Source of the DNA: Nitrospira sp.
GTDB taxonomy: Bacteria > Nitrospirota > Nitrospiria > Nitrospirales > Nitrospiraceae
Assembly: GCA_024998595.1 (NCBI GenBank)
Contig: JACOEK010000003.1
Span: 496,001-560,000, forward strand
DNA: 64,000 nt
Direction: 5' to 3'
The notes beneath the pieces were generated by a model. It worked only from the letters and a program-made list of their open reading frames with translations, had not been told where the DNA came from and searched no databases. A program made the position numbers and the translations under genes. Every line of letters begins with the position of its first letter. Within the stretch, counting starts at the first letter, position 1. This document shows, piece after piece, positions 4,541-63,420 of this stretch.

Positions 4541-4701
4541 CGTGGCCGAAGCACCGTGGTTCGGCGATAAGCCTATGGAGACCAGGGGCATACCCAGTGT
4601 CCCAAATGGCCAATGGGCATTACCATGCGTACCAATGGGATTGCGAGCGCTTCGAAGTCCTTAGGCGTTGCATTTTGATCTGGCGGGCGAGGCACAGGAA
4701 C

Positions 4702-11015: not shown

Positions 11016-11048
11016 TTCGAGTCACCATGCAAGACCGCCATACCCTGA

Positions 11049-11094
11049 CTAGGGGTTTCACTAGTGGGGCGTAACGTCCCATTCATGCTACATA
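11049..11094 (+). promoter_or_regulatory. CTAGGGG-type promoter P6 (signalling operon)
   Basis: CTAGGGGTTTCACTAG at 11049-11064, 24 nt, then TACATA at 11089-11094. The leader to the start at 11254 is about 150 nt. The 16-mer is identical to that of P15 (57505-57520, reverse strand). Confidence 0.65.
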
Positions 11095-11253
11095 ATTTGC
11101 GCAATCTGGAGTGGTATAGCTACGTCTTGTGCCTCGCACCGCTCCGGCCATTTTCGCTGTCTCGTCGGCAGGAGATTTCCTGGGGACCAGTCAGTCTCCG
11201 CGCTGTATGATCGGCCAGCCCTCATCAACCAACAGACAACCTTGGACGGGGCA

Positions 11254-19300: not shown

Positions 19301-19490
19301 CGGACTCAGCGCCATGCGCGCCATCCGTGAACAGCCGGAATGGCGCAAACTGCCCATCATCGCCCTCACTGCAAAGGCAATGAAAAACGACCAAGAGCAG
19401 GCGCTGGCGGCCGGCGCAAACGATTATATGGCCAAACCACTCGATGTGGACCAATTGTTGTCCCTGGTGCGAGTATGGATGCCGCGATGA
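16383..19490 (+). CDS. membrane-anchored hybrid histidine kinase with GAF, coiled coil and three receivers
   Basis: 1035 aa. Three hydrophobic segments (about residues 14-75; [20 protein letters not shown] and following) are followed by a Cys-free short linker, a GAF domain (about 125-270), and a Glu/Gln-rich coiled coil (about 275-355). Then come HisKA with His374 ([15 protein letters not shown]), HATPase (about 485-595), and three successive receivers starting near residues 643 ([10 protein letters not shown]), 765 ([10 protein letters not shown]) and 911 ([10 protein letters not shown]). The tail is nearly the same design as the giant kinase at 34515-41078. It starts inside the stop of the upstream gene, so translation is coupled. 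Confidence 0.92.
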
Positions 19491-29855: not shown

Positions 29856-30500
29856 TTAAGAAGAGGCCAAAATCCCATGCGTTAGCGCATACTTGATCAG
29901 TTCCGCTGTGGTACGAAGCTCGAGTTGTTCCATGATCTGCGCCTTGTGGAATTCCACTGTCCTCGACGAAATCTTTAGCCGCAGAGCGATGTCTTTCATG
30001 GTCTGGCCTTCTGCCAACAGTTGCAAGACTTCACGTTGACGAAAGGTAAGCGCTTTCTTTTGTTGCGGTTGTCTCGGCCTGTTGGAGAGCAACACGTCGA
30101 GCAGATCTTTCGCAATCAAGGGGGTGATATAGGTATGACCGGCCCAAACAGTCCGAATTGCTTGCTCCAGCTCATCCACTGCAGACCGCTTCAACAGATA
30201 CCCCGACGCTCCTGCTTCGAACGCGGATCGCACATAGTCCGCATCGGAATGCATGGTCACAAAGATGACCTTGACTGAGGGCTGTGTCTTTTTCAACTGT
30301 GTGGCGGCATCGATACCATTCAACAGCGGCATAGATATATCGAGAATGACCATATCGGGCAGTACCCTTCGCGCCGCCTCAAGAAGTGCCCGTCCGTCCT
30401 CTACCATGCCAATGAGTTCACATTGGTCTTCCAGAATACGGCGAAATCCTTCTAGCACTAGCGAATGGTCGTCGGCCAACAATACGCGCGGTTTAGCCAT
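29856..30500 (-). CDS. NarL/FixJ-family response regulator
   Basis: 214 aa. Receiver domain with acidic pocket LLADDHSLVLEG and phospho-Asp in VILDISMPLL, Lys in YLLKRSAV. The C-terminal LuxR-type helix-turn-helix (LTFRQREVLQLLAEGQTMKD, then RTVEFHKAQIMEQL) binds DNA on phosphorylation. It follows the membrane kinase at 30503-31663 with a two-base gap, so the two form a classical pair. It is one of three NarL-type regulators in this window that carry an HTH, and thus a candidate for the factor binding the CTAGGGG palindromes, though the two orphans are better candidates. Confidence 0.95.
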   Translation of the reverse strand: MAKPRVLLADDHSLVLEGFRRILEDQCELIGMVEDGRALLEAARRVLPDMVILDISMPLLNGIDAATQLKKTQPSVKVIFVTMHSDADYVRSAFEAGASGYLLKRSAVDELEQAIRTVWAGHTYITPLIAKDLLDVLLSNRPRQPQQKKALTFRQREVLQLLAEGQTMKDIALRLKISSRTVEFHKAQIMEQLELRTTAELIKYALTHGILASS

Positions 30501-30502
30501 GA

Positions 30503-31663
30503 CTACTCCCTTACAGCGAGCGGGACGTGCACCTCGACATGGGTTCCGGAGCCCTGCGCTGCAATCACATCCAAAGTTCCCCCCACCAGGCGAACCCGTT
30601 CCTTCATACTCAGAAGGCCGAGACGCCCCCGTTCCTGTGACGCTCGTGCGAGATCGAACCCGACCCCGTTGTCACGGATCGAGAGGGTGATCATCCCTTC
30701 GTCGCAAATCAGTTCTACTTCCACCTCAGAGGCGTGCGCGTGACGAGCCACATTGGTCAAAGTTTCTTGCGCAATGCGATACACGCACGTCGCGAGGTTG
30801 GTCGGCACGGGGGCCACCGGATCACGGTGCACATACATCGCTACTAATCCCGTGCTGTCGGAAAAGTCATCGACCAGCCTCCGAACGGCTTTCACAAGCC
30901 CTAAATCATCCAATATAGAGGGATGGAAGCGGTAGGCCAGTTGTCTCACATCGTCAGAGACTCTGGTCAATCTCTCTGTAATCGATGAAATCATATGCAT
31001 GGTGGCGGTCTCATCGCCTATCTGCTTCCTCTCAATTCGTCGCAAGTCCATTGCCAACATGGCCAGCCGTTGGTTCACGTCGTCATGGAGATCTCGTGCA
31101 ATGCGGCGGCGTTCCTCTTCTTGAGCCGTCAAAAGTTGTCCCGCTAAAGCTCTGAGTTCTTCGCGACTCTGCTGCAACTCTTGCTGACTCGCCTTCAACG
31201 ACCTCTCGCTTTCACGAAGTGATCGTTCCGTTTCCATTCGTTCACCGATTTCCTCGACGAGCGTCTCGTTGACTGACGCCAGCTCGCGAGTGCGAGCTTC
31301 GACACGCACCTCGAGCTCATCATGAGCTTGCCGTAGCGCTTCCTCGCTCTTTCGCCGCTGGAGGAAATAGACGACCGGAACCCATATGGCAGTAAGACTA
31401 AACAGTCGGTTACTGATCCCCATCCAGAGTGGCACATTCGGCAGAGTGACTCCAAGAAAGACATCCGACAGGGCGAGTACTGAACAGCCACCGGCAACAA
31501 TGAGGGGAACCTTTCGGTCAGGAGAAACCAAGGAAAGCACGACGACGCCGCCGTACAGTACGCCGTTCCCAATCCCCAGGGGGAGATAGAGATCCAGGGA
31601 AAACAGTCCGATTCCCAAGACGACAATCGTGAGTAGTAGCAATTTATGAGAAGGCTGTGTCAC
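30503..31663 (-). CDS. membrane histidine kinase (HisKA_3/NarX-like)
   Basis: 386 aa with about four N-terminal membrane helices (residues 8-100), a long coiled coil (about 100-180), and a HisKA_3 core with the phospho-acceptor in RRRIARDLHDDVNQRLAML. The HATPase ends with DNGVGFD and GLLSMKERVRLVGG. No receiver is attached. The acceptor motif is HDDVNQ, unlike the HDYLAQL of the five hybrid kinases here, so it belongs to a separate branch. The start is GTG at 31663, with GGAGAT upstream. Co-transcribed with its regulator at 29856-30500. Confidence 0.92.
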   Translation of the reverse strand: MTQPSHKLLLLTIVVLGIGLFSLDLYLPLGIGNGVLYGGVVVLSLVSPDRKVPLIVAGGCSVLALSDVFLGVTLPNVPLWMGISNRLFSLTAIWVPVVYFLQRRKSEEALRQAHDELEVRVEARTRELASVNETLVEEIGERMETERSLRESERSLKASQQELQQSREELRALAGQLLTAQEEERRRIARDLHDDVNQRLAMLAMDLRRIERKQIGDETATMHMISSITERLTRVSDDVRQLAYRFHPSILDDLGLVKAVRRLVDDFSDSTGLVAMYVHRDPVAPVPTNLATCVYRIAQETLTNVARHAHASEVEVELICDEGMITLSIRDNGVGFDLARASQERGRLGLLSMKERVRLVGGTLDVIAAQGSGTHVEVHVPLAVRE

Positions 31664-41162: not shown

Positions 41163-41207
41163 ACTATAAGCCGGCGGGTGTCGTGGACGGACTAGGGGAT
41201 ACCCTAG
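41163..41207 (-). promoter_or_regulatory. CTAGGGG-type promoter P8 (giant HAMP kinase operon)
   Basis: On the reverse strand CTAGGGTATCCCCTAG (41207 to 41192), a perfect palindrome apart from its centre, exactly 23 nt, then TATAGT (41168-41163). The leader to 41078 is about 78 nt. One of the best copies. Confidence 0.75.
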
Positions 41208-41340
41208 TTACCGGGGAATCGGGGAATGCAGAGGGTCGTAGAGCTAATAGGAAATGTGGCGCAATCGACTGGCGGTGACGCGGAGTCGACACCGCTGAAT
41301 GCACTCGGACAGGGTGGACTTTTCTTAACACCACAGCGCT

Positions 41341-41830: not shown

Positions 41831-41874
41831 ACGATACATGATTATTGAAAATAGGTTACTAGGAACCTCCCTTG
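41831..41874 (-). promoter_or_regulatory. CTAGGGG-type promoter P9 (Hsp20-like gene), weaker copy
   Basis: On the reverse strand CAAGGGAGGTTCCTAG (41874 to 41859), 22 nt, then TATCGT (41836-41831). The left half-site is degenerate and the spacing is one shorter than usual. Confidence 0.4.
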
Positions 41875-41892
41875 GAATTTGGCGGATGTGCG

Positions 41893-41937
41893 CTAGCGCT
41901 TTGCCTAGTTGTGACACGCTGCCGAAGTCCTTATAGT
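41893..41937 (+). promoter_or_regulatory. CTAGGGG-type promoter P10 (PAS-PAS kinase)
   Basis: CTAGCGCTTTGCCTAG at 41893-41908, exactly 23 nt, then TATAGT at 41932-41937. Transcription would start near 41944, which rules out a start codon at 41872 and supports the ATG at 41989. Confidence 0.7.
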
Positions 41938-41988
41938 GCCTTTGACAACGACCTTGCTCTCCACCGTAAGCGACATCAGGGACTGTCC

Positions 41989-43965
41989 ATGCCCAGCCCA
42001 GAAGACGCATTTCCCTCCTGTTCAGAGGCCGGATTTCCGGTGGATTTCATGTTGGCGCACTTGGCAGCCATCGTCGAGTGTTCCGACGACGCCATTATCT
42101 CCAAGGATCTCAACGGAATCATCACGAGTTGGAACAGGGGTGCCCAACATCTCTTCGGCTATACGGCCTTTGAGATGGTCGGGCAGCCGGTGCAACGCTT
42201 GATCCCCGCCGATCGGTCGAACGAAGAGCCGCGCATTTTGGAACGGCTCAGCCGGGGGGAACGAATCGACCACTATGAAACGGTGCGGAAGCGTAAAGAT
42301 GGGACATTGATTGAAATTTCGCTGTCCGTTTCGCCAATCAAGGATCGGGGAGGACGGATTGTCGGAGCGTCAAAAATCGCACGGGCGATTTCGGAGTTGA
42401 AACAGGGCGAAAGAAACCTGGCCAATCTCGTCGAGGCCCTCCCCGCCGCCGTCTATACCACCGATGCCGAAGGCCGGATTACGCGATGTAACCAGGCTGC
42501 CGTAGACCTCTGGGGCTGCCCTCCGACGCTCGGTGTCACCCGCTGGACCGGTTCTTGGCGTCAGTACTGGACGGATGGCCGACTCATGCCGTCGGAAGAA
42601 AGTCCCTTGGCGCGATCGTTGACTCTCAATCGCCCGGTGCGTGGACTGGAACTCATCATCGAACGATCGGACGGTACCCGCCACCCCGTCGCCTCTCATC
42701 CCACGCCGCTTCGCGACGCGTATGGCGCTGTAGTGGGCGGGGTGGACATCCTCGTCGATTTAACCGAACAAAAACGGGCTGAACGGGACATGCAGAATTC
42801 CGCCGTTGAACTCGAGCGCCGCATCGCCGAGCGCACGGCGGAGTTGCTCCTCTCGAAGGAACGCCTGCGAGCCTTGGCCTCCGACCTCACTCTGACGGAG
42901 CAACGCGAACGCCGGCACCTCGCGACTGAATTACATGATTACCTCGCCCAGCTTGTGGTGGCCAGCCGGATCAGGCTTGCGCAAGTCATCCCCACCATTC
43001 AAGACGCGTCCGCATCGGCTGCCCTCTCGAAGATCGATGGGATGCTGGATCAGGCGTTGACCTATACCCGCTCGTTGGTCGCCGAATTAAGTCCTCATAT
43101 CCTGTACCAATTCGGCCTGTCGCAATCGTTGGTCTGGTTAGGAGAACAGATGAAACAGCACGGCCTCGAAGTGGCTGTCAAAACGATGGCGCCGTCATTT
43201 ACCCTGCCGGACGATCAAGCCGTGTTGTTATTCCAATCGGTTCGCGAACTGCTGTTTAATGTCATTAAACATGCCAAGGTCGACCGCGCCGCCATTACCG
43301 TTAATGTAGATGAGGATCGTCGAGAACTGTGGATCTGTGTGGAGGATGAGGGTGCCGGCTTCGATGTGACAGAACTGGGCCTCACGAAAAACACCCGCTG
43401 CAAATTCGGTCTGCTGAGCATCAGGGAACGAATGGAGTTGCTGGGAGGCGAGTGTGAGGTGTCGTCCCTTCAGGGAAGCGGCACGGTGGCGATACTCCGC
43501 CTGCCGATAGCGACCGGCTCCGTCCAGCCTCCGTTCGCACGCACCCCGGAAGTCACGCACACGCTGCCCCCTCCCATGGAAGCCTCATCGCGCAATATTA
43601 CAATTCTTCTCGTAGACGATCATGCCATGGTCCGGCAGGGACTCCGCAGTATCTTGGACGCCTACGACAATTTGACGGTGGTGGGAGAAGGCGCCGACGG
43701 TCAGGACGCCGTCATCATGGCCCGTTCGCTGCATCCGGATGTCGTCATCATGGACGTGAATCTGCCCCTCATCGACGGCATCGAGGCGACTCGTATCCTG
43801 ACGCAGGAACATCAATCCATCACGGTTATCGGCATATCCGTCCGCAATGACCCTCAGGTTCATGACGCGATGACCGCCGCCGGGGCGGTGGCCTTCTTAC
43901 CCAAAGAGTCCGCAGCCGACCAACTCTACGAAACGATCCTTCGCCATTTTTCCGTTCAAGCCTAA
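41989..43965 (+). CDS. PAS-PAS-HisKA_3-HATPase-REC hybrid kinase
   Basis: 658 aa, soluble. Two PAS domains (about 20-140, with 'ISKDLNGIITSWNRGAQHLF', and 145-270), HisKA_3 core with His316 in [19 protein letters not shown], HATPase (about 410-510), a Pro-rich linker and a NarL-type receiver ([18 protein letters not shown], Asp in VIMDVNLPLI) without an HTH. The start at 41989 (MPSPEDAFPS) is chosen because the predicted transcript begins at about 41944; the frame is open to 41872. SD is weak (AGGGA). Paralogue of 20922, 32352, 44169 and the second half of 11254. Confidence 0.9.
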   Translation: MPSPEDAFPSCSEAGFPVDFMLAHLAAIVECSDDAIISKDLNGIITSWNRGAQHLFGYTAFEMVGQPVQRLIPADRSNEEPRILERLSRGERIDHYETVRKRKDGTLIEISLSVSPIKDRGGRIVGASKIARAISELKQGERNLANLVEALPAAVYTTDAEGRITRCNQAAVDLWGCPPTLGVTRWTGSWRQYWTDGRLMPSEESPLARSLTLNRPVRGLELIIERSDGTRHPVASHPTPLRDAYGAVVGGVDILVDLTEQKRAERDMQNSAVELERRIAERTAELLLSKERLRALASDLTLTEQRERRHLATELHDYLAQLVVASRIRLAQVIPTIQDASASAALSKIDGMLDQALTYTRSLVAELSPHILYQFGLSQSLVWLGEQMKQHGLEVAVKTMAPSFTLPDDQAVLLFQSVRELLFNVIKHAKVDRAAITVNVDEDRRELWICVEDEGAGFDVTELGLTKNTRCKFGLLSIRERMELLGGECEVSSLQGSGTVAILRLPIATGSVQPPFARTPEVTHTLPPPMEASSRNITILLVDDHAMVRQGLRSILDAYDNLTVVGEGADGQDAVIMARSLHPDVVIMDVNLPLIDGIEATRILTQEHQSITVIGISVRNDPQVHDAMTAAGAVAFLPKESAADQLYETILRHFSVQA

Positions 43966-43986
43966 CGGGAGGAAGACTCTCCCAGA

Positions 43987-44031
43987 CTAGGGAGTCCCCT
44001 AGTAGCGACCGGCATCCGACTGGCCTATGAT
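43987..44031 (+). promoter_or_regulatory. CTAGGGG-type promoter P11 (membrane PAS kinase)
   Basis: CTAGGGAGTCCCCTAG at 43987-44002, exactly 23 nt, then TATGAT at 44026-44031. The leader to the ATG at 44169 is about 130 nt. One of the best copies. Confidence 0.75.
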
Positions 44032-44168: not shown

Positions 44169-47100
44169 ATGACTTCGGTGCTGCTGACGCTGCAACGCCT
44201 GGTCCCCTCGGCCGCCGGATTAGCGATTGCTTTTCCGATCATCGCCTTCCTGTGCTGGTCCTACAGCCCGACATTGCTCTACAATTTGTGGCCTTCCGCA
44301 GGGACGGTCACACCAACGACGATGGCGGCGATCTTTTTTTTCGGGCTCTCTCTCTGGCTCCAAGCCGACGAGCAGACCGTCACATGGACGAAGCGGCGTA
44401 TCGCGCAAGGCTTCGCAGGTCTCGCCTGCCTTCTGGCAGGGCTTACAATGCTGGAATACTTGCTGTCCATCGACTTGGGTATCGATCTCTGGCTCGCCTC
44501 TTTTCCAGATAGAACATTGGATTCCCATCCCGGCCGGATGGCTCCCGCCACCGCCTTCGCCATTCTCATGTTGGGGTTGGCCTTGCTCCGGCTCGACTCC
44601 GAAAACAGCGGCCACGCCGATGCCAGTCATTATCTTGCATTGCTCGGGGGAACCGTCGGCGCCATTGCCCTCGTCGGTTACCTCTATGGCGTGCAAACAC
44701 TGTACAAAGTCGGAACCGCCAACACTATATCCATCTACACCGCCGGGCTTCTATTGGCACTTGGCCTCGGCATTCTCAGCGCCCGCCCCACCCGTGGATT
44801 CATGTCCACGTTGACGAGCGATGATCTTGGTGCCGTGATGTTGCGCCGCGTCCTGCCCTTCGCCATCACCTTACCGATTCTCGCCGGATGGATTCGTATC
44901 GCCGCTCAGCGGTCCGGCCGCTACGATTTCAATTTCGGGGTCGCGCTGGCCGTGGCCGCGGTGATGCTGATCATCCTTGCGTTTCTCTGGGTCCTCGCCG
45001 GCAACCTCAATCGCACCGACGCACAAAAGAAACATATCCTGCAAATACTCCAGCAACGCGAAGCCCGGCATCGTCTGGCGCTGAAAGCCGGCCGCATGGG
45101 CACGTTCCACCAAGATCTGGATCGTCATACATTGGTCTTTTCCCCAGAACTGGAGAGTATTTTCGGTTTGCCTGCGATGACCTTCGGCAGCACGTTCGCC
45201 GCGTTCCAGGATCTGATTCATCCCGAGGACCGGGTGCGTGTGCTGCTGACCATCAACGACGCTATCCAAAACCGGAGCGCCTACGACGTGGAGTGCCGCA
45301 TTCTCCGCCAGGTTCCTCCCGGTGAAGCCTGGATCGCGGTTACCGGACAGGTTCTTCCGGATTCAACCGGTCATCCCCGGCAAATTACCGGCGTCATGTT
45401 TGATATCACGGATCGCAAACAGTCCGAAACCGCCCTCCGACAGAGTGAACAGCAGCTGCGCGTCATCACCGATGCCCTTCCCGGCCTCATTGCATCCGTC
45501 GATCGCGACGAGCGCTATCGGTTCGTCAATGCAAGGTACGAGCAACAATTCGGATTACCTCGTGAACAGATCGTCGGCCTCTCGGTGAAAGATCTTCTCA
45601 AAGAAGACTATCGAATCGTTCAGCCGTTCATCCGACGGGTGCTGAGCGGGGAACGCATTGCCTTTGAAACCACTCTTCTCGGAGAAGGAGGCGAACGCAC
45701 CCTGTTCTCCACCTACGTACCCGATCGGACTCCCGAGGGAATGGTGGCGGGATTTTATGTACTCATCACCGATATCACGGAACGCAAGCGCACCGAAGGC
45801 GCCCTGAAGGAAAGCGAGGAGCGGTTTCGTCATCTTTTTGAGCAGGCGTCGGACGGGATCGTCACGGCGGACATGAGCGGACAGTACCTCGATGTGAACA
45901 GCCGCGCCTGCCAGATGTTGGGGTATTCCCGCGAAGAGTTGTTCGGCCTGCGGGTTCCCGACCTCTTGGACCCGCATGACTATCCACGCTTGAGGGCGAT
46001 CAAGTCTGAATTGATCCAGGGCCATCGCCACTCGGGAGAATGGAAACTACGGAGAAAGGACGGAGAAACGATTTCCGTCGAGATCAGCGCCAAATTGCAG
46101 CCGGATCGGCGCTGGCATGCCATTGTCAGAGACATTACCGAACGCAAGCGGGCCGACGCGGGTCTGCGCGAAAGCGAAGCCTATTTTCGTATGTTGGCGG
46201 ATGCCACACCGGTGCTGGTGTGGAAGGCCGGGACGGATCGGCTCTGTTCCTGGCTCAATCGATCCTGGCTGGAGTATACGGGACGACGTCTCGATGATGA
46301 GCTGGGGACCGGACGGACCGACAGCATTCATCCCGAAGACCGGGCCAATTTCATCAGGGTCTACAACCAGCACTTTTCCAGACAGGAACCCTTCGAACTG
46401 GAATACCGGCTGCGTCGTCAGGACGGGACCTACGGATGGATCTTGGACCGAGGGGTTCCCCTTCTAGGTGCGACCGGAGTGTTCAGCGGATACCTCGGGG
46501 CGGCGCTCGACATCACGGACCGGAAACTCGCCGAAGAACAGCTGCAGCAGTGGACCGTGGAACTGGAGAAACGCGTGGATGAACGCACGCAAGCGCTCGT
46601 GCATTCGCAAGCCCGCCTCCGGGCCCTGGCTTCCGATCTCAGCGCCACGGAACAGCAGGAGCGCCGACGGCTCGCCACAGAACTGCACGACTATCTCGCA
46701 CAGTTGCTGGTCGTCGGCCGCATGAAACTTAGTCAGGCCAGGCCGCAAGTCCGTAATCCGAAAACGGAACAACTGTTGAGCGAGGCTGACGACATGCTCA
46801 CCCAATCGCTCAACTACACGCGATTTCTCGTGGCCGAATTAAGTCCACAGATTTTGTATCAATTCGGTTTGCCTGCCGCCCTCAAATGGCTGGCCGGCCA
46901 AATGAAAACGCATGGACTGTCTGTCGCCATGCGCTCTGACATTGACCAGCTTCAGATCGCCGAACAGAACGCCGTCATTTTGTACCAGAGTGTGCGGGAA
47001 CTCTTGTTCAATGTGGCAAAACACGCGGGTACCAGCGAGGCAACCATCACGCTTACACAGAGCCCTGCCAATCAGGTGCTCATTTCCGTGTCCGATCAAG

Positions 47101-47714
47101 GGACCGGGTTCAATCCGGACATTCTTCTCGACACCGATCGGCATCATCCCGGACGATTCGGCCTCTTTAACGTTCAAGAACGCGTCGAAGCTGTCGGCGG
47201 GGCGTTCAGCCTGAAGTCGTCAGTGGGTTCCGGAACCACCATTACGCTCAGCGCACCTCTCAACCCGACTCCGGACGCGACCCCGGAGACGAGCATGGGG
47301 ATATCAGATCAGGTTCCCGGAGTGCCCCAAACTCCTTCGCATCGCTTACGAATTCTCCTGGTCGACGACCACGCCATGGTACGTCAAGGATTGCGGAGCG
47401 TCCTGGAAAGTTACAGCGATCTGGAGGTGGTGGGAGAGGCTGGCGACGGAGGTGCAGCCATCGGTATTGCCGCGGCCCTCAAGCCGGATGTAGTGGTGAT
47501 GGACATCAACATGCCTAATATCGACGGCATCGAAGCCACTCGCCATATTGTCAAAGAGCACCCTGATGTCGTAGTGATCGGGCTTTCAGTCCAGAATGAA
47601 CGGCATATTGAGGAGGCTATGCTGAAGGCCGGGGCGGCGGTCTTTGTGACCAAAGAACGCGCCGCCGGCCAGCTCTACGAAGCCATTGTCAGCACAGTGC
47701 GAACCAGAAGGTAG
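44169..47714 (+). CDS. membrane multi-PAS hybrid kinase (HisKA_3) with C-terminal receiver
   Basis: 1181 aa. About eight N-terminal membrane helices (residues 10-285) form a MASE-like sensor. Four PAS/PAC units follow (about 300-420, 430-545, 560-670, 680-800), then HisKA_3 with His840 in [20 protein letters not shown], HATPase (about 935-1030), and a NarL-type receiver ([18 protein letters not shown], Asp in VVMDINMPNI) without an HTH. It is the only membrane-bound member of the HDYLAQL family here. GGAGG is rather far (14 nt) from the ATG, but no other in-frame start exists. It converges on the small stress operon with only 14 nt between stops. Confidence 0.92.
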   Translation: MTSVLLTLQRLVPSAAGLAIAFPIIAFLCWSYSPTLLYNLWPSAGTVTPTTMAAIFFFGLSLWLQADEQTVTWTKRRIAQGFAGLACLLAGLTMLEYLLSIDLGIDLWLASFPDRTLDSHPGRMAPATAFAILMLGLALLRLDSENSGHADASHYLALLGGTVGAIALVGYLYGVQTLYKVGTANTISIYTAGLLLALGLGILSARPTRGFMSTLTSDDLGAVMLRRVLPFAITLPILAGWIRIAAQRSGRYDFNFGVALAVAAVMLIILAFLWVLAGNLNRTDAQKKHILQILQQREARHRLALKAGRMGTFHQDLDRHTLVFSPELESIFGLPAMTFGSTFAAFQDLIHPEDRVRVLLTINDAIQNRSAYDVECRILRQVPPGEAWIAVTGQVLPDSTGHPRQITGVMFDITDRKQSETALRQSEQQLRVITDALPGLIASVDRDERYRFVNARYEQQFGLPREQIVGLSVKDLLKEDYRIVQPFIRRVLSGERIAFETTLLGEGGERTLFSTYVPDRTPEGMVAGFYVLITDITERKRTEGALKESEERFRHLFEQASDGIVTADMSGQYLDVNSRACQMLGYSREELFGLRVPDLLDPHDYPRLRAIKSELIQGHRHSGEWKLRRKDGETISVEISAKLQPDRRWHAIVRDITERKRADAGLRESEAYFRMLADATPVLVWKAGTDRLCSWLNRSWLEYTGRRLDDELGTGRTDSIHPEDRANFIRVYNQHFSRQEPFELEYRLRRQDGTYGWILDRGVPLLGATGVFSGYLGAALDITDRKLAEEQLQQWTVELEKRVDERTQALVHSQARLRALASDLSATEQQERRRLATELHDYLAQLLVVGRMKLSQARPQVRNPKTEQLLSEADDMLTQSLNYTRFLVAELSPQILYQFGLPAALKWLAGQMKTHGLSVAMRSDIDQLQIAEQNAVILYQSVRELLFNVAKHAGTSEATITLTQSPANQVLISVSDQGTGFNPDILLDTDRHHPGRFGLFNVQERVEAVGGAFSLKSSVGSGTTITLSAPLNPTPDATPETSMGISDQVPGVPQTPSHRLRILLVDDHAMVRQGLRSVLESYSDLEVVGEAGDGGAAIGIAAALKPDVVVMDINMPNIDGIEATRHIVKEHPDVVVIGLSVQNERHIEEAMLKAGAAVFVTKERAAGQLYEAIVSTVRTRR

Positions 47715-49962: not shown

Positions 49963-50316
49963 CTAGGATTGATTTCCCTTGTCACCATGGCTTTCCCCAT
50001 GGCTTTCAAACCAGTCATCAACCCAGCGTTTTACCTCTTCCCGGCGATCGCCATACCGTTCCTGAATTTTTCCTTCCAAAGTATCGATCCGCCCTTCGAT
50101 CAGCATCAAATCGTCATCCGTGAATTCAGCCCACTTTTGTTTCAACTCGCCTTTGAATTGCTTCCACTTGCCCTCGACCTGATCCTGGTTGACCACCAGT
50201 AGGGGCTTTCCTTGTGTGCCGCGTGGGGACAACGTTTCGCCCGCGTGTCCCACTCCCGTGATGGTCAGCATCACCGAACCGGTGAGGACCAGCAGATTCC
50301 AACGTCCGAGTGTCAT
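49963..50316 (-). CDS. exported CsbD-like stress protein
   Basis: 117 aa. Unlike normal CsbD, it begins with a signal peptide (TLGRWNLLVLTGSVMLTITG, cleavage after VGHA). The mature part carries the CsbD core 'VEGKWKQFKGELKQKWAEFT', then DDDLMLIEG and IQERYGDRREEVKRWVDDW, strongly like the cytosolic paralogue at 50709-50954. GGAGGA upstream of the ATG at 50316 sets the start. CsbD is a stress-induced protein of unknown mechanism; a periplasmic form is unusual. Confidence 0.85.
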   Translation of the reverse strand: MTLGRWNLLVLTGSVMLTITGVGHAGETLSPRGTQGKPLLVVNQDQVEGKWKQFKGELKQKWAEFTDDDLMLIEGRIDTLEGKIQERYGDRREEVKRWVDDWFESHGESHGDKGNQS

Positions 50317-50382
50317 CGTCGCTCTCCTCCGAGGCCATGACAGGGCGTGCCGGCCAATCCGTTGCCGGCACGCCCGCATCGA

Positions 50383-50661
50383 TTAGTGATCGATTTTCGC
50401 CTGACCGCTCTGCGCATCGACATAGACCTTCTGGGTCTTGTTGTTCGAATCGACGATTTCGATCTCATAGACGGTGCGCCCGTCTTCCTTCCCGATCTCA
50501 GCCTCCACAGCCTTTCCCGGAACAGCCTTCAACGCATGCTTGACGGCATCTTCCAGGGTGACGGTCGCTGTTGCGGCCAGCTGTTTGTTGGACTCGAATA
50601 ATGCCCAGGCCGGGCTTGCGAGAAGTCCGGACATCAATGCGATCGCAATCATTTTTTTCAT
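50383..50661 (-). CDS. PepSY-domain exported protein
   Basis: 92 aa. Signal peptide MKKMIAIALMSGLLASPAWA, then a PepSY domain: 'TLEDAVKHALKAVPGKAVEAE', ending 'YEIEIVDSNNKTQKVYVDAQ' and SGQAKIDH. PepSY modules are thought to inhibit or modulate peptidases outside the cytoplasm. AAGGAG eight bases before the ATG at 50661. Part of the CsbD operon. Confidence 0.9.
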   Translation of the reverse strand: MKKMIAIALMSGLLASPAWALFESNKQLAATATVTLEDAVKHALKAVPGKAVEAEIGKEDGRTVYEIEIVDSNNKTQKVYVDAQSGQAKIDH

Positions 50662-50708
50662 ATCAAGCACTCCTTGGGTAAAGTTGGATTCAATCAACAC
50701 ATTCGCGT

Positions 50709-50954
50709 TCAACGAGGAGGCTGCGCCTCTCGATGTGGGGTGCCCGGCTGCGGTTGCCCCTGCCGGGAGTGCCAATCATCTGCCCAGCGCATCACTTCTT
50801 CCTTCTTATCGCCATACCGTTCCTGAATGCGTCCGACAAACTTGTCGTAGTCGCCTTCGATCTGCGTCAGATCGTCGTCCGTAAATTTTCCCCACTGTTT
50901 CTTCACTTCGCCCTTGAACTGCACCCATTTTCCTTTAAATTGATCGCTATTCAT
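50709..50954 (-). CDS. csbD: CsbD family stress protein
   Basis: 81 aa, cytosolic. MNSDQFKGKWVQFKGEVKKQ, then WGKFTDDDLTQIEGDYDKFV and GRIQERYGDKKEEVMRWADD are the CsbD family core; a Gln/Pro-rich tail follows. CsbD proteins are induced by general stress regulators (sigma B or sigma S) in other bacteria. GGGAGG sits before the ATG. It overlaps the stop of the preceding gene by one base, so is coupled to it. Confidence 0.93.
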   Translation of the reverse strand: MNSDQFKGKWVQFKGEVKKQWGKFTDDDLTQIEGDYDKFVGRIQERYGDKKEEVMRWADDWHSRQGQPQPGTPHREAQPPR

Positions 50955-51184: not shown

Positions 51185-51678
51185 GTACGCCTCCCGACGA
51201 TTGTCTGTATTTGTTATATATCCGAAGAGGAATATGGATGACTGGACATACCCCTAGTTTTAAAAGGCACGGCCCCCGGAGTTATTCCTTCTACGTAATA
51301 GTTCTCTTTGGTAAGTGAAGTGAGGCGAGGGCGGAATAGCGCGCAATGAGGGGCACAAAACGCAGGACGAGTACTGAGCTACGTGGCGAAGAAAACGTCT
51401 TGTAGGGAGAGGACTGCTAAGGATGGCTACGGATGAAGCCTGGGATCGTGCAAGAGCATCTTCCCAGGCTTCTCCGGTCTGTTTACGCGGCGTCCATCAT
51501 GGAGGCCGGGGCGCCCCTCCGGCAGATACAACACCGACGTGGAATATTCAACACACAGGGCAACATGCAGCCCTTCCCCATCCACGTAGCTCCCGGCGGT
51601 ATAGGGTCGGCCCGGCCATGCCTTCATCTCCTACACACTAAACGGGAGTGAGGATCGAACTCTCATCGTCGCGACATA
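51185..51678. other. intergenic region with promoter P12 and a hairpin
   Basis: 494 nt between two reverse-strand genes. The part next to 51184 is promoter P12. GAAGCCTGGGA (51435-51445) pairs with TCCCAGGCTTC (51462-51472), a perfect 11-bp stem with a 16-nt loop, perhaps the terminator of the ferritin-like gene. Short frames on both strands at 51427-51651 have no supporting features. Confidence 0.5.
51213..51257 (-). promoter_or_regulatory. CTAGGGG-type promoter P12 (CsbD operon)
   Basis: On the reverse strand CTAGGGGTATGTCCAG (51257 to 51242), exactly 23 nt, then TATAAC (51218-51213). Transcription would start near 51206, leaving a leader of about 22 nt. Confidence 0.7.
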
Positions 51679-52212
51679 TCACTTCAACAGACTGACCAGA
51701 TCCTCAGCATGTTCTTCTTCCTTCATCAGAATTTTCTCGAGCATTCGCCGGGTCGTGGGATCGTCACTGCCGACGAAGGCGATCATGTCGCGGTAACTTT
51801 CGATCGCGATCCGCTCCGCAATGAGATCCTCTTTGATCATGTCTTTAAGGTTCTCGCCCTCCACATATTCCGAATGGCTGCGGGTCGACAACCCCTCTGG
51901 GGAGAGGTTTGGTTCTCCGCCCAGCTGCACGATTCGCTCCGCGAGTGCATCCGCATGCGCCTGTTCCTCCCCTGCATGGGTAAGGAATTCAGCCTTCACG
52001 CTGTCAGCATTCATTCCTTCTGCCATAAAATAGTGCCGTCTGTATCGAAGGACACAGACAATCTCCGTCGCCAACGCTTCATTCAATAACTTGACGACGG
52101 TATCGCGGTCCGCTTTGTAGTCCGCCGTTAAGGCACCCTCTTCGATATGTTGTCGAGCACGTTCCCTGATGGTCTTCACATCCTTGATGATAGACGGCTT
52201 GTCTGCTTTCAT
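51679..52212 (-). CDS. ferritin-like (bacterioferritin-type) protein
   Basis: 177 aa, helical. The di-iron ligand pattern is visible: Glu in LLNEALATEIVCVLRYRRHY, ExxH in HAGEEQAHADALAER, Glu in EDLIAERIAIESYRD, and ExxH in MKEEEHAEDL. It would store or detoxify iron, or scavenge peroxide. It is close to bacterioferritins but has no obvious haem-binding Met. Start at 52212 (AAGGAG upstream), the frame is open to 52242. It follows a small exported protein under promoter P13. Confidence 0.88.
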   Translation of the reverse strand: MKADKPSIIKDVKTIRERARQHIEEGALTADYKADRDTVVKLLNEALATEIVCVLRYRRHYFMAEGMNADSVKAEFLTHAGEEQAHADALAERIVQLGGEPNLSPEGLSTRSHSEYVEGENLKDMIKEDLIAERIAIESYRDMIAFVGSDDPTTRRMLEKILMKEEEHAEDLVSLLK

Positions 52213-52257
52213 ATCTGCTCCTTTCAACGCACGTAAAGTCACAAATCTGGCGGTCGT

Positions 52258-52483: not shown

Positions 52484-52528
52484 ACACTAGTAGAGAGGCC
52501 CGGTGGGACGTACTAGGCAGACCCCTGG
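52484..52528 (-). promoter_or_regulatory. CTAGGGG-type promoter P13 (small protein and ferritin-like gene)
   Basis: On the reverse strand CCAGGGGTCTGCCTAG (52528 to 52513), exactly 23 nt, then TAGTGT (52489-52484). The leader to 52449 is about 28 nt. Confidence 0.65.
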
Positions 52529-52556
52529 CGGTCGTGCGGGAATCCCCCGGCGGGAC

Positions 52557-53736: not shown

Positions 53737-54366
53737 TCACCGTGGAACCGCTACGGAAGACAGTCCCGCTTGAAGACGCTCTTCGACCACGCTCCACCCG
53801 ATATTGCTGAAAAACGATTCGACGTACTGCTTGCGTTCACTCGGTTGGTAATCCAACAGGTACGCATGTTCCCACACGTCCATCACAAGGATGGGCAAGA
53901 ATCCGGCTACGTTCCCATGTTCATGCAACGACACCCAATGGTTGGAGACCAGGCCCCTCGAAGGATCCACGTTACAAATCGCCCAGCCTACTCCGCGCAT
54001 CGTACCCACACTGCAGAAGTCCGCCTTCCAACGCTCATAACTGCCGAATGTTTGTTCCACGGCCCGATGAAAAGCCGAGCCATTAGGAGGCTGGTCTCCC
54101 CCTCCCCGGCGGAGATTTCCGAAATAATATTCGTGGAGCACCATGCCGTTGAATTCAAATCCCAGCCTCCGCGTCAGTTCGGAATAGGCCGGCATTTGCT
54201 CGTGATCGACTTTTCCCTGTTTCATAAAATCGGAAAGTTGATCGCGCAACTCATTGGCCGCTTTCACATAGCCTTCATAGAGCCCGAAATGGACCCGGAG
54301 GGTTTCATCGGAGATACCCGACAGACCAAACAGATCGTAGGCCTTCGCCTGATAGGGCTGAGTCAT
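53737..54366 (-). CDS. sodB: iron/manganese superoxide dismutase
   Basis: 209 aa, cytosolic. Metal ligands are visible: His in VHFGLYEGYV, His in FNGMVLHEYYF, and Asp and His in VMDVWEHAYLLDY. It converts superoxide into peroxide and oxygen, feeding the catalase of this window. The second and third signature positions (GVGWAICN) vary from typical Fe or Mn enzymes, so the metal is uncertain and the symbol is tentative. First gene of a unit with the Pro-rich peptide and probably 53389 and the CBS gene, under promoter P14. Confidence 0.9.
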   Translation of the reverse strand: MTQPYQAKAYDLFGLSGISDETLRVHFGLYEGYVKAANELRDQLSDFMKQGKVDHEQMPAYSELTRRLGFEFNGMVLHEYYFGNLRRGGGDQPPNGSAFHRAVEQTFGSYERWKADFCSVGTMRGVGWAICNVDPSRGLVSNHWVSLHEHGNVAGFLPILVMDVWEHAYLLDYQPSERKQYVESFFSNIGWSVVEERLQAGLSSVAVPR

Positions 54367-54424: not shown

Positions 54425-54470
54425 ACCTTACTTCCACTCTGATCCCATTCCCAACTAGGCGATGCCCTGG
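54425..54470 (-). promoter_or_regulatory. CTAGGGG-type promoter P14 (superoxide dismutase unit)
   Basis: On the reverse strand CCAGGGCATCGCCTAG (54470 to 54455), 24 nt, then TAAGGT (54430-54425). The leader to 54366 is about 52 nt. The rest of the 305-nt divergent region 54367-54671 has only a weak second copy (54487-54502, see rejected). Confidence 0.6.
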
Positions 54471-54671
54471 CAACCTTTGGACAATGCAGGGGGCTTTCCT
54501 AGGCGCCTTCGTGTATAGAATCGGGCAAGATCTACCTAATGCCAGAAGAGCTCTTGAAGGAGAGAGGCTCGCGGTAAACACTAGACAAGACTGCTACGGT
54601 GAGATTATTTTGAAGGTATCGACAAACACGAAACCTGTAGACTCGAGACGACCGTAGAGGGAAGGAGTGAC

Positions 54672-55328
54672 GTGGCCAAAGCGCGCATTGTCATCGCCGA
54701 TGACCATAGTTTAGTGCTGGAAGCATATCGACAATTGCTGGAGCCGGATTATGAGGTGGCGGGCACGGCTTCCGACGGACAAGAACTGCTGAACATCGCG
54801 CCGGCGCTGAACCCCGATATTATCCTGCTTGATATTTCCATGCCGAATATGAACGGATTGGAAGTCACTAAGCAGCTGCGTGCCGCGGTGCCTCATGCCA
54901 AGATTATTTTTGTCACGATGATGAGCGAACCCTTCTATATCTCGCAGGCCTTTCAGATGGGCGCATCAGCCTATGTATTGAAACAGTCTGCTTCTACGGA
55001 ATTATTGTCCGCGTTAAACGCCGCGCTCAAGAATCAACGATACATCTCCCCGCAGCTCTCCCTTGAGGTGCAGGATGCCATCGAAACTCCCTGGGTCAAA
55101 CCGGAGGGGTTTTCCTCCAAATTGACTCCTCGTCAACAGGAGGTTCTGCAGCTGTTGACGAAGGGCATGTCCACGAAGGAAATCGCGACGACCATGCAGG
55201 TTTCCACCAAGGCCGTGGAATTTCACAAAGGCAATATCACGCGCCGCCTCGGTATCCGCACCACTGCGGAACTGACGCGCTTCGCCCTGTCGCAAGGCCT
55301 CACAAAACTGAGCGATCAACACCCGTAA
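54672..55328 (+). CDS. orphan NarL/FixJ-family response regulator A
   Basis: 218 aa. Receiver (IVIADDHSLVLEAYRQLLEP, Asp in IILLDISMPNM) and LuxR-type helix-turn-helix (LTPRQQEVLQLLTKGMSTKE, then KAVEFHKGNITRRLGIRTTA). The start is GTG at 54672 with AAGGAG ahead. No kinase gene is adjacent, but five kinases with NarL-type receivers lie within 45 kb. It sits in the SOD promoter region and faces regulator B tail to tail with 4 nt between stops. A prime candidate for binding the shared palindrome (inference). Confidence 0.93.
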   Translation: MAKARIVIADDHSLVLEAYRQLLEPDYEVAGTASDGQELLNIAPALNPDIILLDISMPNMNGLEVTKQLRAAVPHAKIIFVTMMSEPFYISQAFQMGASAYVLKQSASTELLSALNAALKNQRYISPQLSLEVQDAIETPWVKPEGFSSKLTPRQQEVLQLLTKGMSTKEIATTMQVSTKAVEFHKGNITRRLGIRTTAELTRFALSQGLTKLSDQHP

Positions 55329-55332
55329 CGGA

Positions 55333-56016
55333 TTAGGGCTGAGAGCCGGGAACCGTGGGCTGCTGCGGCATGGCAATGAGCCCGATTGAAATGGCGTGTT
55401 TGGTGAGTTCAGCGGTGCTGTGGACACCGAGTTGTTTCATGATGCGGGTTTTATGGAATTCAACGGTCTTGATAGACACATTGAGGGTCGAGGCGATTTC
55501 TTTCGTCGATTGGCCTTCGGCGATCAGCTGAAGCACTTCCCGCTGCCGGCCGCTGAGCAGGTCGTTAGTTGGCCCCGCACCGGCCGGAGCCGGCGCAACC
55601 GGATGAAGCGCTTGCGCCACCAGATTTTCCGCCACGCTGGGCGACACGTACAGGCGCCCTTTCAACACTTCCTTAATCGCGAAGACGAGCTCTTCTGCTA
55701 CTGATTGCTTCAAGACGTAGCCTGATACGCCGGCGCGAAACGCTTCCGTCACGAAATATTGCTCGCTGTGCATGGTCAGCACGAGCAGCTTCACCTCGGG
55801 AACCGATTTTTTGATTTGTCGGCACGCATCAAGCCCGTTCAACAGCGGGAGTGCGATGTCCACCAGCGCAATATCCGGCTTCTCCTTTTCAACCGCCCGA
55901 ACGAGCGCGCGCCCGTCTGCGGCTCTGCCGCATAATTGGAAATCATGTTCCAGCAGCTTTTCGACACCCTCCGCAACGAGGGTATGGTCGTCGGCTATAA
56001 TGACTCGTGGTTTCAT
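55333..56016 (-). CDS. orphan NarL/FixJ-family response regulator B
   Basis: About 227 aa. Receiver (RVIIADDHTLVAEGVEKLLE, Asp in ALVDIALPLL, Lys in YVLKQSVAEE), a Pro/Ala linker, and LuxR-type HTH (LSGRQREVLQLIAEGQSTKE, then KTVEFHKTRIMKQLGVHSTA). The start at 56016 fits GGAG seven bases ahead; ATG at 56022 is also in frame. Convergent with regulator A and similar to it. No dedicated kinase next door. No shared palindrome found upstream. Confidence 0.93.
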   Translation of the reverse strand: MKPRVIIADDHTLVAEGVEKLLEHDFQLCGRAADGRALVRAVEKEKPDIALVDIALPLLNGLDACRQIKKSVPEVKLLVLTMHSEQYFVTEAFRAGVSGYVLKQSVAEELVFAIKEVLKGRLYVSPSVAENLVAQALHPVAPAPAGAGPTNDLLSGRQREVLQLIAEGQSTKEIASTLNVSIKTVEFHKTRIMKQLGVHSTAELTKHAISIGLIAMPQQPTVPGSQP

Positions 56017-56104
56017 GGACATGCTCCAGGCTAAAGGAAAAAGCCGAGTAGGAAGTGATGTGGAATCCTACCATTCTCTCCACATGATTACGAGTGGCCT
56101 TCGG

Positions 56105-57421
56105 TCACAATTCTTTTGACCAGAAAAAAATGATCCCATGCCCGCCCTTGGTGGGCGGCGCGCCGCCCGGGTCCCGATAGATACCGAAATTATAGGTGTA
56201 ATTCAGCTCGATCTGCGATTTCCAGGGGGCCCCGGTCACCAGTCCGCCACCTAAAGCCGGCATGGAGTCGGTGATATTCTTGACCGCAGTGCCCGACGTA
56301 AAGACCGGACGCTCGACCAACCCCCATGTCGCTTCCAGATAGGGATACATAAAAAATAAGGCTTCATAGCGGTATTGCAAATTGGCGACGGCATAACGGG
56401 TCGGAAATAATTCGTTGAAGGCCACGCCGTGGATCATCGGAAGCGAGATGGCCTCCCATTCATACCCGGTCGGTCGGCCAGGAAGCCGGAAGGCCGAAAA
56501 TCGATCCAGGTCCTTTCCAATTCCTCCATGAACACTGCTTAAGAGCCGGTGTTTGTCACTCTCGATAAACGGCAATCCCGTTGCCAACAACGCATAGGCA
56601 CTGGCTTGAAGGTAGGTCCGTTCCTTATTGAAATCCGGCGTGTTGAACGGGGCGCCTCCCCATTGGTCCCACTTCGCTCGGTGGCCGTGCAACAGATCGC
56701 CGCCCATGGTGAATCCTTCGTGGGGAAGTTCCATCAGATTTCGCTTGAGAGCATCGGCGCGTATGCGGAAATGAATGCGGCCTTCATAGGTGTCCTTCGG
56801 CACGCCATAGTCTGCGGAGGTGTGGCCGGTGCCTTTGAACCAGCGATACCCTGCTTCGTACGTGAGCGAAATGTTGACCGCACTGTCCTGGCGAAAGGGA
56901 TGGACCGGAAGCCGGTAACCCAGTCCGGCGCCGGCAAAAGCGTAGCTCCACTCCAACTCCGTGCCACGCTGACGTTGCCCCTGAACATATTCTGAACGGC
57001 CGAATGGAAGGATAAAGTTGTCCCACGTGAATAAGAGCGACCAGTTCGGGTACTCGCGCAGCCCGATCGTGTAGTCCACGTCGTTGACGACGCCCGAAAA
57101 GGTGCCGCGCAGTCGACGGTTGTCGTCATCCCAATTCCGCCAGATGTATAAGGCGCCGAATGGGAGCACTTCCTGCTGGGTCGGCCCGTTGGGAATGGCC
57201 TGAATTCCGAAACTGATGGCGGTGACACTCCGCCGGTCCCTGGGCGGCACATAGATTTCTTCCCCGAACAGTGTGGTTCGAAAGGGTTCCCCGGCAATCG
57301 GCGTGGGTTCTTCAGCCAGGACAATGTCTTGTCCCTCGCCGAACATGCCCCCACCGATTGCCCAGCCGCATAACAGGCTGCAACTCAAACAGAATAACCA
57401 TCGATACGGACTCCTGCCCAT
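56105..57421 (-). CDS. large outer-membrane beta-barrel protein of unknown function
   Basis: 438 aa. Signal peptide (RWLFCLSCSLLCGWAIGGG) then a mature chain rich in aromatic, Gly and amphipathic strands (YIWRNWDDDNRRLRG, YANLQYRYEALFFMYPYLEA-like strands, ELNYTYNFGIYRDPGG), ending FFWSKEL. It looks like an outer-membrane barrel without a plug. No family recognised. Promoter P15 with the perfect 16-mer is upstream. Separated from regulator B by 88 nt. Confidence 0.7.
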   Translation of the reverse strand: MGRSPYRWLFCLSCSLLCGWAIGGGMFGEGQDIVLAEEPTPIAGEPFRTTLFGEEIYVPPRDRRSVTAISFGIQAIPNGPTQQEVLPFGALYIWRNWDDDNRRLRGTFSGVVNDVDYTIGLREYPNWSLLFTWDNFILPFGRSEYVQGQRQRGTELEWSYAFAGAGLGYRLPVHPFRQDSAVNISLTYEAGYRWFKGTGHTSADYGVPKDTYEGRIHFRIRADALKRNLMELPHEGFTMGGDLLHGHRAKWDQWGGAPFNTPDFNKERTYLQASAYALLATGLPFIESDKHRLLSSVHGGIGKDLDRFSAFRLPGRPTGYEWEAISLPMIHGVAFNELFPTRYAVANLQYRYEALFFMYPYLEATWGLVERPVFTSGTAVKNITDSMPALGGGLVTGAPWKSQIELNYTYNFGIYRDPGGAPPTKGGHGIIFFWSKEL

Positions 57422-57474: not shown

Positions 57475-57520
57475 CTTATATGTCAGCCATGACACACCTG
57501 ACCCCTAGTGAAACCCCTAG
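57475..57520 (-). promoter_or_regulatory. CTAGGGG-type promoter P15 (outer-membrane protein)
   Basis: On the reverse strand CTAGGGGTTTCACTAG (57520 to 57505), identical to P6, 24 nt, then TATAAG (57480-57475). The palindrome may also serve the divergent gene at 57670, where TATTTC lies 22 nt beyond it (57543-57548). Confidence 0.65.
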
Positions 57521-57669
57521 GAGGCAGGCGTGGACAACCGAGTATTTCTTCGCGCTCCGGCGAAGACATCCGACGCATGGGTCGCGGCCCATCCAGATCT
57601 CCCGTATACGCCGCGAACCAGGCACATTCCCAGTATTCGTCCCACGGTCGACGAGGTAAGGTGAGTCCA

Positions 57670-61511: not shown

Positions 61512-61538
61512 ACGCGATGCTGCCAGCGATGGAGCTTG

Positions 61539-61583
61539 CTAGGGGGACGCCTAGTACGTATTCTGAAGGGAGACCTTTAGGAT
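61539..61583 (+). promoter_or_regulatory. CTAGGGG-type promoter P16 (Pro-rich exported protein)
   Basis: CTAGGGGGACGCCTAG at 61539-61554, exactly 23 nt, then TAGGAT at 61578-61583. Leader to the ATG at 61634 is about 44 nt. Confidence 0.7.
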
Positions 61584-62017: not shown

Positions 62018-63289
62018 TTACGGTTCTTTCGTGCGGCGTTCTTTCCAGTAAATCAGCCGGGCGCCGGGTTTAAAGGTCACGTAGTACCAGATCCATTCGA
62101 ACATGACCCTGACCCGGTTTCGAAAACCGATCAGAAAAAAGATATGAACGAAACACCAGGCCAGCCATGCCACCATTCCGGACAATGACACCGTCCCGAA
62201 TTGCGCCACCGCCTTAGCACGCCCTATCGTCGCCAATATTCCACGATCCCGATACACAAACGGAATGCGCCGTTCCGCAGGAATACCGCGGGCAATGATT
62301 TCGGCCACGTATCGGCCTTCCTGCATGGCGACCGCCGCCAATCCAGGCAATGGTTTGTCTTCTGACGACAGACAGTGCGCCGCATCACCGATCACGAAGA
62401 CCCATGGATCACCACGGAGACTCAGATCCGGCCCGACCATCACCCGTCCCGAGGAGTCCAAGGGAACTCCGAGTGAGGTGAGGATGGGTGATGCCACATT
62501 ACCCGCGGCCCAAATCACATGAGCGCTGCGGATGAACTCTGAGCCGGCGAGCACTCCTTTCGAGTTGACCTCCTGAACCCGACGATTCAGAAGCACGGTC
62601 ACCCCGAGGCTTTCCAGCGACGCTTGCGCCCGACGCGACAGCGCGGGAGGGAACGATTCAAGAATACGCGATCCTCCTTCGATGAGCAGGATGCGACAAG
62701 CTGCGTCCTGCAACACCGGAAAGTCCGGCGTCATGGCCTTTCTCCCGATCTCCGCCAACGCTCCCGCCAATTCCACACCCGTAGGGCCGCCTCCCACGAT
62801 GACGAAGGTGAGTTCATCACGCGCATCCGGCGTGCCGTTCAATCGTTGGGCCTTCTCGAAGGCCATGAGCATGCGGTCGCGAATCTCCAACGCATCCGGC
62901 AGGGTTTTTAACCCGGGTGCGTCCTCTTCCCATTTATCATGGCCGAAATAGGAATGGCGGGCGCCTGGGGCGAGAATCAAACAGCCGTAAGGAACCGGAT
63001 CGCCATTCCGTAAGTCGATGCGGCGGCCCGCGCGATCGATCCCACGCACTTCATCCAGCATAATCCGGACATTCCTTTGGGATCGAAATAGGGTTCGAAG
63101 CGGCCAGGCGATATCGGCCGGGGAAAGCGCTGCCGTCGCGACCTGATACAGCAACGGTTGGAACAGGTGATGGTTCACTCGGTCGATGAGTACAATGTCA
63201 CCCTGCATCCGGTGCAGCGCCCGGGCTGCCGCCAATCCGCCGAACCCTCCACCGACAATGACTACAGGGTCTCGACAATGCTGTTGCAC
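62018..63289 (-). CDS. ndh: type II NADH dehydrogenase (NDH-2)
   Basis: 423 aa flavoprotein. FAD-binding GxGxxG in VVIVGGGFGGLAAARALHRM, NADH-binding site in VIVGGGPTGVELAGALAEIG, and the FAD contact VIGDAAHCL. The C-terminus has a hydrophobic/amphipathic helix (MVAWLAWCFVHIFFLIGF) and a Tyr/Lys tail, which attaches it to the membrane. It passes electrons from NADH to quinone without pumping protons. The start at 63289 is supported by frame and the early GGGFGG motif. It converges on the Pro-rich gene and is divergent from the glycosyltransferase. Confidence 0.93.
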   Translation of the reverse strand: MQQHCRDPVVIVGGGFGGLAAARALHRMQGDIVLIDRVNHHLFQPLLYQVATAALSPADIAWPLRTLFRSQRNVRIMLDEVRGIDRAGRRIDLRNGDPVPYGCLILAPGARHSYFGHDKWEEDAPGLKTLPDALEIRDRMLMAFEKAQRLNGTPDARDELTFVIVGGGPTGVELAGALAEIGRKAMTPDFPVLQDAACRILLIEGGSRILESFPPALSRRAQASLESLGVTVLLNRRVQEVNSKGVLAGSEFIRSAHVIWAAGNVASPILTSLGVPLDSSGRVMVGPDLSLRGDPWVFVIGDAAHCLSSEDKPLPGLAAVAMQEGRYVAEIIARGIPAERRIPFVYRDRGILATIGRAKAVAQFGTVSLSGMVAWLAWCFVHIFFLIGFRNRVRVMFEWIWYYVTFKPGARLIYWKERRTKEP

Positions 63290-63374
63290 GATTGCGCTCC
63301 ATGAATCGCTGCCCGCGAACGAATACTACATTTCGACACTGACGCATCGTTCCTGAGCGGCAACGTGAGTGCTA

Positions 63375-63420
63375 CTAGGGAGCCGCCTAGTTCTGGAGAC
63401 TTAACGAGCATCGTTATGAT
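63375..63420 (+). promoter_or_regulatory. CTAGGGG-type promoter P17 (glycosyltransferase)
   Basis: CTAGGGAGCCGCCTAG at 63375-63390, 24 nt, then TATGAT at 63415-63420. The leader to 63552 is about 125 nt. The reverse direction (ndh) has no good -10 at the same spacing. Confidence 0.65.

Follow-up and report, generated by a model that had tools for sequence, protein, structure and literature searches.

A tail-to-tail pair of NarL-type regulators as probable readers of an 18-bp palindrome in a putative stress-gene island of Nitrospira

The solved response regulators of the NarL/FixJ type (VraR, DesR, DevR/DosR, NarL and RcsB) consist of a full-length receiver followed by a GerE helix-turn-helix (HTH), and their operators differ, NarL reading heptamers and DosR a palindrome of ~20 bp. 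LuxR, with an HTH of the same family, activates transcription from the lux box in the class II manner, the site being centred near -42.5. Alternative-sigma stress responses (RpoS, SigB, EcfG–PhyR–NepR) are another point of comparison for the locus described here. We analysed a window of 64,000 nucleotides (C15:496001-560000, on contig 15) from a 4.23-Mb Nitrospira genome, which encodes two regulators, A and B, that have the domain organization of the solved proteins and differ from them in having no cognate kinase gene beside them and in forming a conserved tail-to-tail pair of paralogues (Table 1). Regulator A has a GTG start and 218 aa; regulator B has an ATG start and 229 aa, position 56016, formerly taken as its end, being a second ATG. 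Their stop codons lie 4 bp apart, so the two genes are convergent. Pfam detected Response_reg (6.9e-29 in A, 1.3e-23 in B) and a C-terminal GerE HTH (2.2e-17 and 3e-20), and the phosphorylation residues are intact in both: DDH at residue 10/11, the Asp of LLDISMP/LVDIALP, T(M)xS and the Lys of YVLK. A receiver with the Asp, Thr and Lys residues and a GerE HTH place both proteins among the NarL/FixJ-type response regulators, and the best PDB match of B is VraR (6.4e-28), followed by DesR, DevR and NarL. The best NCBIfam profile for A, B and a third regulator of the window is MctR (NF052445), but they are not MctR because they score 168–190 bits (A 168, B 169) against an equivalog cut-off of 300. 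The autoinducer-binding domain of LuxR is missing in A and B, which have receivers instead and fall outside the quorum-sensing regulators. The pair is flanked by a superoxide dismutase (SOD) gene and a gene for a 438-aa protein; no histidine kinase gene adjoins A or B, the nearest (44169-47714) being ~7 kb off, and both are orphan response regulators. The initial annotation had described A and B in these terms, with which Pfam and the coordinates agree. The tree supports the clade of A orthologues at 100/98 and that of B at 100/99, the latter also including family f3. A is 80–96% identical in 18 congeneric genomes, and the matches of B at 85–97% identity are, among named relatives, almost only Nitrospira MAGs, one of them labelled N. 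defluvii. One contig titled 'Nitrosospira' (L194) carries B at 97% identity, and this title is probably wrong for a Nitrospira.

Table 1. Features of the window, in window coordinates; a dot marks an unstranded feature
Feature	Position	Strand	Remarks
Regulator A	54672..55328	+	NarL/FixJ-type, receiver + LuxR-type HTH; recognition helix KAVEFHKGNITRRL; Pfam
Regulator B	55333..56022	-	NarL/FixJ-type; recognition helix KTVEFHKTRIMKQL; tail to tail with A; Pfam
Third NarL regulator with its own HisKA_3 kinase	29856..31663	-	VEFHK helix; Pfam
Palindrome ACTAGGCGATGCCCTGGC	54454..54471	.	between SOD and A, oriented to SOD
-10 TAAGGT toward SOD	54425-54430	-	belongs to the 54454 palindrome
Second, degenerate palindrome GCAGGGGGCTTTCCTAGG	54486..54503	+	oriented to A
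-10 CAAGAT, putative A promoter	54526..54531	+	22 bp past the degenerate palindrome
Fe/Mn superoxide dismutase	53737..54366	-	candidate target of the 54454 site; Pfam Sod_Fe_C 2.2e-22
438-aa protein	56105..57421	-	no Pfam match; upstream of B, same strand
Palindrome CCTAGTGAAACCCCTAGG	57504..57521	-	-10 TATAAG at 23 bp; before 56105-57421
Exact palindrome	43986..44003	+	-10 TATGAT at 22 bp; upstream of hybrid kinase 44169-47714
Exact palindrome	41191..41208	-	-10 TATAGT at 22 bp; upstream of 2187-aa HAMP-array kinase 34515-41078
Palindrome	41892..41909	+	-10 TATAGT at 22 bp; upstream of/at start of hybrid kinase 41872-43965
Palindrome	11048..11065	+	upstream of hybrid kinase 11242-16386
Exact palindrome	63374..63391	.	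between NDH-2-like gene 62018-63289 and gene starting 63552
Palindrome	61538..61555	+	-10 TAGGAT at 22 bp
Palindrome	52512..52529	-	-10 TAGTGT at 22 bp; upstream of ferritin-like gene 51679-52242
Palindrome	51241..51258	-	-10 TATAAC at 22 bp; toward PepSY / CsbD genes 49963-50775
Palindrome	4581..4598	+	-10 TACCAT at 22 bp; at DUF748 gene 4597-6342

The palindrome, for which the initial annotation gave no spelling, was recovered de novo by dyad counting as ACTAGG-N6-CCTAGT; an earlier search, limited to perfect arms of 7–10 bp, had turned up no recurrent family. Exact matches occur 4 times in the window, single-mismatch copies 2 times and double-mismatch copies 13 times; the corresponding values in Markov shuffles are 0.0, 0.1 and 0.4. 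A PWM applied to 164 kb of contig 15 found 35 sites compared with 1–4 in shuffles; they span C15 470,975 to 572,458, and almost all fall in ~100 kb (C15:471-572 kb). Five of the six exact copies in the whole genome lie inside this ~100-kb island, which holds A and B (p=5e-8, an optimistic value because the bounds of the stretch were drawn after the sites had been seen). The palindrome is real and not a product of chance. To our knowledge it matches no operator of NarL/FixJ-type regulators, and a literature lookup of the motif sequence returned nothing relevant.

The distance from the palindrome to the promoter is fixed. When the -10 score was taken at every distance in an unselected scan of 397 flanks, it had a single peak 22 bp past the palindrome (mean -2.95 versus about -6.2 elsewhere), where 10.8% of the flanks exceeded 5 bits, versus about 0.6% at other distances. 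In all four locus groups, a -10 scoring 0 bits or more lay 21–23 bp away on one side in 92–100% of the sites, compared with a mean of 30–47% at control distances. The logo of aligned promoters, in which positions 22–27 were selected, has no independent weight; the 397-flank scan carries it. No -35 box was seen in the aligned promoters, its place being occupied by the palindrome, and placing the -10 at -12 to -7 puts the centre of the palindrome near -43. Judged from sequence, this is the geometry of a class II activator promoter, with an operator at fixed distance near -42, a -10 and no -35 box, and the class II site near -42 proposed in the initial annotation is thereby borne out by the 22-bp spacing and the missing -35 box. 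The lux box is similar in length and in its distance to the -10, likewise overlaps the -35 place and is read by an HTH of the same family.

In the region between SOD and A, the 54454 palindrome is kept in all 19 congeneric A loci together with an SOD-ward -10 at 22–23 bp, and the 3' half of the degenerate palindrome (CCTAGG or CTAGG) is likewise kept in 19/19, usually followed by a -10-like hexamer at 22 bp; both elements are thus conserved in 19/19 species, within a stretch that has otherwise mostly diverged. The 57504 palindrome, conserved in several congeneric loci, would drive 56105-57421 and perhaps B too, with which that gene is possibly co-transcribed. For the 63374 palindrome the best -10 is TATGAT, at 23 bp toward the gene at 63552, and the true start of kinase 41872-43965 is probably later than the ORF start. 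Site-associated genes of the island include those for catalase, BrkB-like, DUF748, PLD/VTT-domain, CsbD, PepSY, ferritin, SOD, trehalase-like GH15 and NDH-2-like proteins and sensor kinases, and those of the flanks encode YtxH, hemerythrin, Ku, LigD, glycogen debranching enzyme, GlgC-like and alpha-amylase-like proteins, peroxiredoxin and PRC-barrel proteins. By its gene content, the target set looks like a general stress response.

As the initial annotation had it, the third NarL regulator has its own kinase and five kinases end in NarL-like receivers without an HTH: a HisKA_3 kinase gene (30503-31663) immediately precedes that of the regulator (29856-30500), and domain and receiver comparisons showed that the end receivers of five HisKA_3 hybrid kinases (11242, 20922, 32352, 41872 and 44169) have no HTH, are 50–58% identical to one another and most resemble NarL-type receivers. 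Separately, the 2187-aa hybrid kinase, preceded by the exact palindrome at 41191, contains 12 tandem 276-bp repeats (a HAMP array) and three C-terminal receivers, and CheR and CheB genes (19340-20925) stand between hybrid kinases, an unusual chemotaxis-type insertion in a cluster of stress sensors. At the island edge lies a gene for an NtrC-type sigma-54 response regulator (L019 9242-10624; C15:569242-570624).

Our sample comprised 197 genomes, 25 of them congeneric. A and B are present in 19 of the 25 (80–97% identity), and each of these 19 has one to six exact palindromes, whereas the six congeneric genomes without A and B have 0, 0, 0, 0, 0 and 1 (19/19 versus 1/6, Fisher p=1e-4, optimistic because the compared genomes are related). 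Allowing one mismatch, the counts are 9–22 with A/B versus 1–7 without. In a protein tree built for 11 of these genomes, those without A/B are not one group (at least two changes, at best four), so their scatter does not reflect one single event. The species without A/B have only 32–43% homologues of GH15, no Ku, and the 44169 kinase absent or only distantly matched; a test of whether orthologous targets lose the palindrome in these genomes failed, those targets being absent there. A, B, the hybrid HisKA_3 kinases, the targets and the palindrome are co-inherited, and since the module moves as a block, presence and absence cannot separate A, B and their kinases. Outside the genus but within the family, an exact site occurs in 20 of the 31 genomes with the A–B pair versus 21 of the 80 without. 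The co-occurrence rule is therefore strong in the genus and looser outside it: the expectation that the palindrome tracks A and B stood in the congeneric genomes and in its enrichment in other genera, but sites also occur in genomes lacking both regulators, taken literally the very result that the initial annotation had said would refute its proposal, and exclusivity fails.

In the 31 family genomes outside the genus that have both regulators, A and B are adjacent and convergent in 30 and on separate contigs in one. Twenty A–B loci of other genera (6–20 kb each) contain 95 sites at a PWM score of at least 10, with 2–8 per locus, against an expected 0.23 per 20 kb, so that the palindrome is enriched about 20-fold. 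A and B are common to all 20 loci and every other island gene to at most five, cross-matching kinases and receivers excepted; as the loci were picked for A and B, the weight rests on the motif density and on the absence of another shared gene. A palindrome with a -10 aimed at A was found in 15/20 of these loci, versus 5% of random stretches of the same loci, while a palindrome promoter of B's own was found in 0/20.

We infer that A or B binds the palindrome, the co-occurrence itself tracking the whole module. The two regulators very probably read it, perhaps alongside close paralogues. The recognition helix of B, VEFH[K/R], is almost unchanged across families f1 and f3, as is the motif core, whereas that of A has changed to VLFHK or VAFHK in one subgroup, and in family f3 B converges on a regulator of another clade (VAFHK). 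B is thus the likelier constant reader, and A would be its autoregulated partner; A–B heterodimers are possible. In L116-L118, loci of family f3 where B faces such a partner, a palindrome about 1.2 kb upstream of B precedes what appears to be an SOD gene; in six loci of this family, a frame lying antisense to SOD finds matches beside B. SOD beside the regulator pair seems older than the genus. Another f3 locus (L129 9803-11274, G044) has two tandem regulators, each followed by a near-perfect palindrome (10492 and 11326) with strong -10s, which is a cascade of related regulators in another family.

The VEFHK helix occurs in six regulators of the same genome, and 4/6 of these have a palindrome within 2 kb, versus 1/19 of the others (p=0.005). 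Other members of this clade (the C10-type kinase–regulator system, the C14 regulator and the third NarL regulator, which shares the helix) might then be the main readers, with A and B as targets or minor readers. C10-type regulators do have a palindrome behind them, with a -10 at the right spacing and directed at the next gene, also in species without A/B, and several of the residual exact sites in A/B-less genomes of other genera (G088, G111 and G195) lie 109–480 bp behind similar regulators. However, motif counts drop sharply without A/B though the C10-type regulator stays, the third NarL regulator has no palindrome within 2 kb, and in other genera there are about 5 sites per 20 kb at A–B loci versus 0–3 at others; we thus regard this arrangement as rather unlikely. 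Because several residual sites lie close behind paralogues with the same helix, the specificity is probably that of a small clade including A and B, and the palindrome is probably an operator of the whole clade. An example in the genome itself is a kinase–regulator pair on C10 (L022 11082-11802), behind which a palindrome promoter points at the gene that comes after. In distant B homologues of Rhodoferax and other Betaproteobacteria the helix is different (VETHR/VDTHR) and no palindrome was found nearby. Regulators with an IEYHK helix have a palindrome nearby on two planctomycete-labelled MAG contigs and one Nitrospirae contig; near-identical IEYHK regulators with the same palindrome CCTAGGAATTTCCCCAGT under Nitrospirae and Planctomycetota labels (L209, L213 and L223) may reflect misbinning or transfer.

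The reader may also be a regulator encoded outside the island. A globally encoded transcription factor of a non-NarL type, with A and B as mere members of its regulon, would suit the inferred status of A/B binding, and the palindrome promoter of A in most loci could be explained by any activator. We nevertheless consider it very unlikely: site numbers collapse in the congeneric genomes without the module, the residual sites lie behind NarL-type paralogues, and the only DNA-binding regulator other than NarL-type ones among the scanned island proteins is the NtrC-type protein at the edge, whose sigma-54 mode is incompatible with a -10 hexamer at 22 bp and was rejected. That the palindrome, being palindromic and recurrent, is a repeat, terminator or structural element and no activator site is scarcely credible, given its fixed -10 spacing, its position before genes, the variable N6 core and flanks, and its conservation in syntenic promoters of diverged species.

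We therefore consider it likely that ACTAGG-N6-CCTAGT is the operator of a NarL-type activator, read by B and probably A, that would drive a clustered stress regulon. The five hybrid kinases would feed A and B, directly or by phosphorelay, and phosphorylation would promote dimerisation. A dimer of B, and probably also of A, would bind the palindrome near -43, next to a sigma-70-type RNA polymerase, and activate the promoter in the class II manner, switching on the stress regulon clustered around A and B. A, itself a target, would amplify the response, and B, with no palindrome promoter of its own in the 20 loci of other genera, would be the more constant reader.

The target list (catalase, SOD, ferritin, Ku/LigD, glycogen/trehalose enzymes, CsbD and YtxH) is like that of alternative-sigma stress responses, but control here looks two-component, with an ordinary -10. 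NepR was not found in the genome, which sets the system apart from EcfG–PhyR–NepR, and the best-scoring sigma factor of the genome reached 326 bits against an RpoS cut-off of 378.7; a group-2 sigma factor may act as a helper. Our literature searches found no description of the operator or of a Nitrospira stress regulon, most subscription papers lying outside their scope. Each part is of a known kind; what is new is their combination, with this operator, a tail-to-tail pair of regulators and a two-component activator in control of a stress regulon. Opinion is evenly balanced on the wider reading, in which Nitrospira and its family would have a general stress response without the usual alternative sigma factor, running from many PAS/GAF/HAMP hybrid kinases, which would converge on the tail-to-tail NarL-type pair, to an 18-bp palindrome at -43, in a clustered module gained or lost as a unit between close species.

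Nitrospira are dominant nitrite oxidisers, and their species differ in having SOD and catalase. In strain ND1 the genes for both enzymes are listed as having no N. defluvii homologue (PMC5767232). The operator, the promoter geometry and two named candidate activators make the control of stress genes directly testable, and, if the wider reading is true, these bacteria would use a two-component activator where others use an alternative sigma factor.
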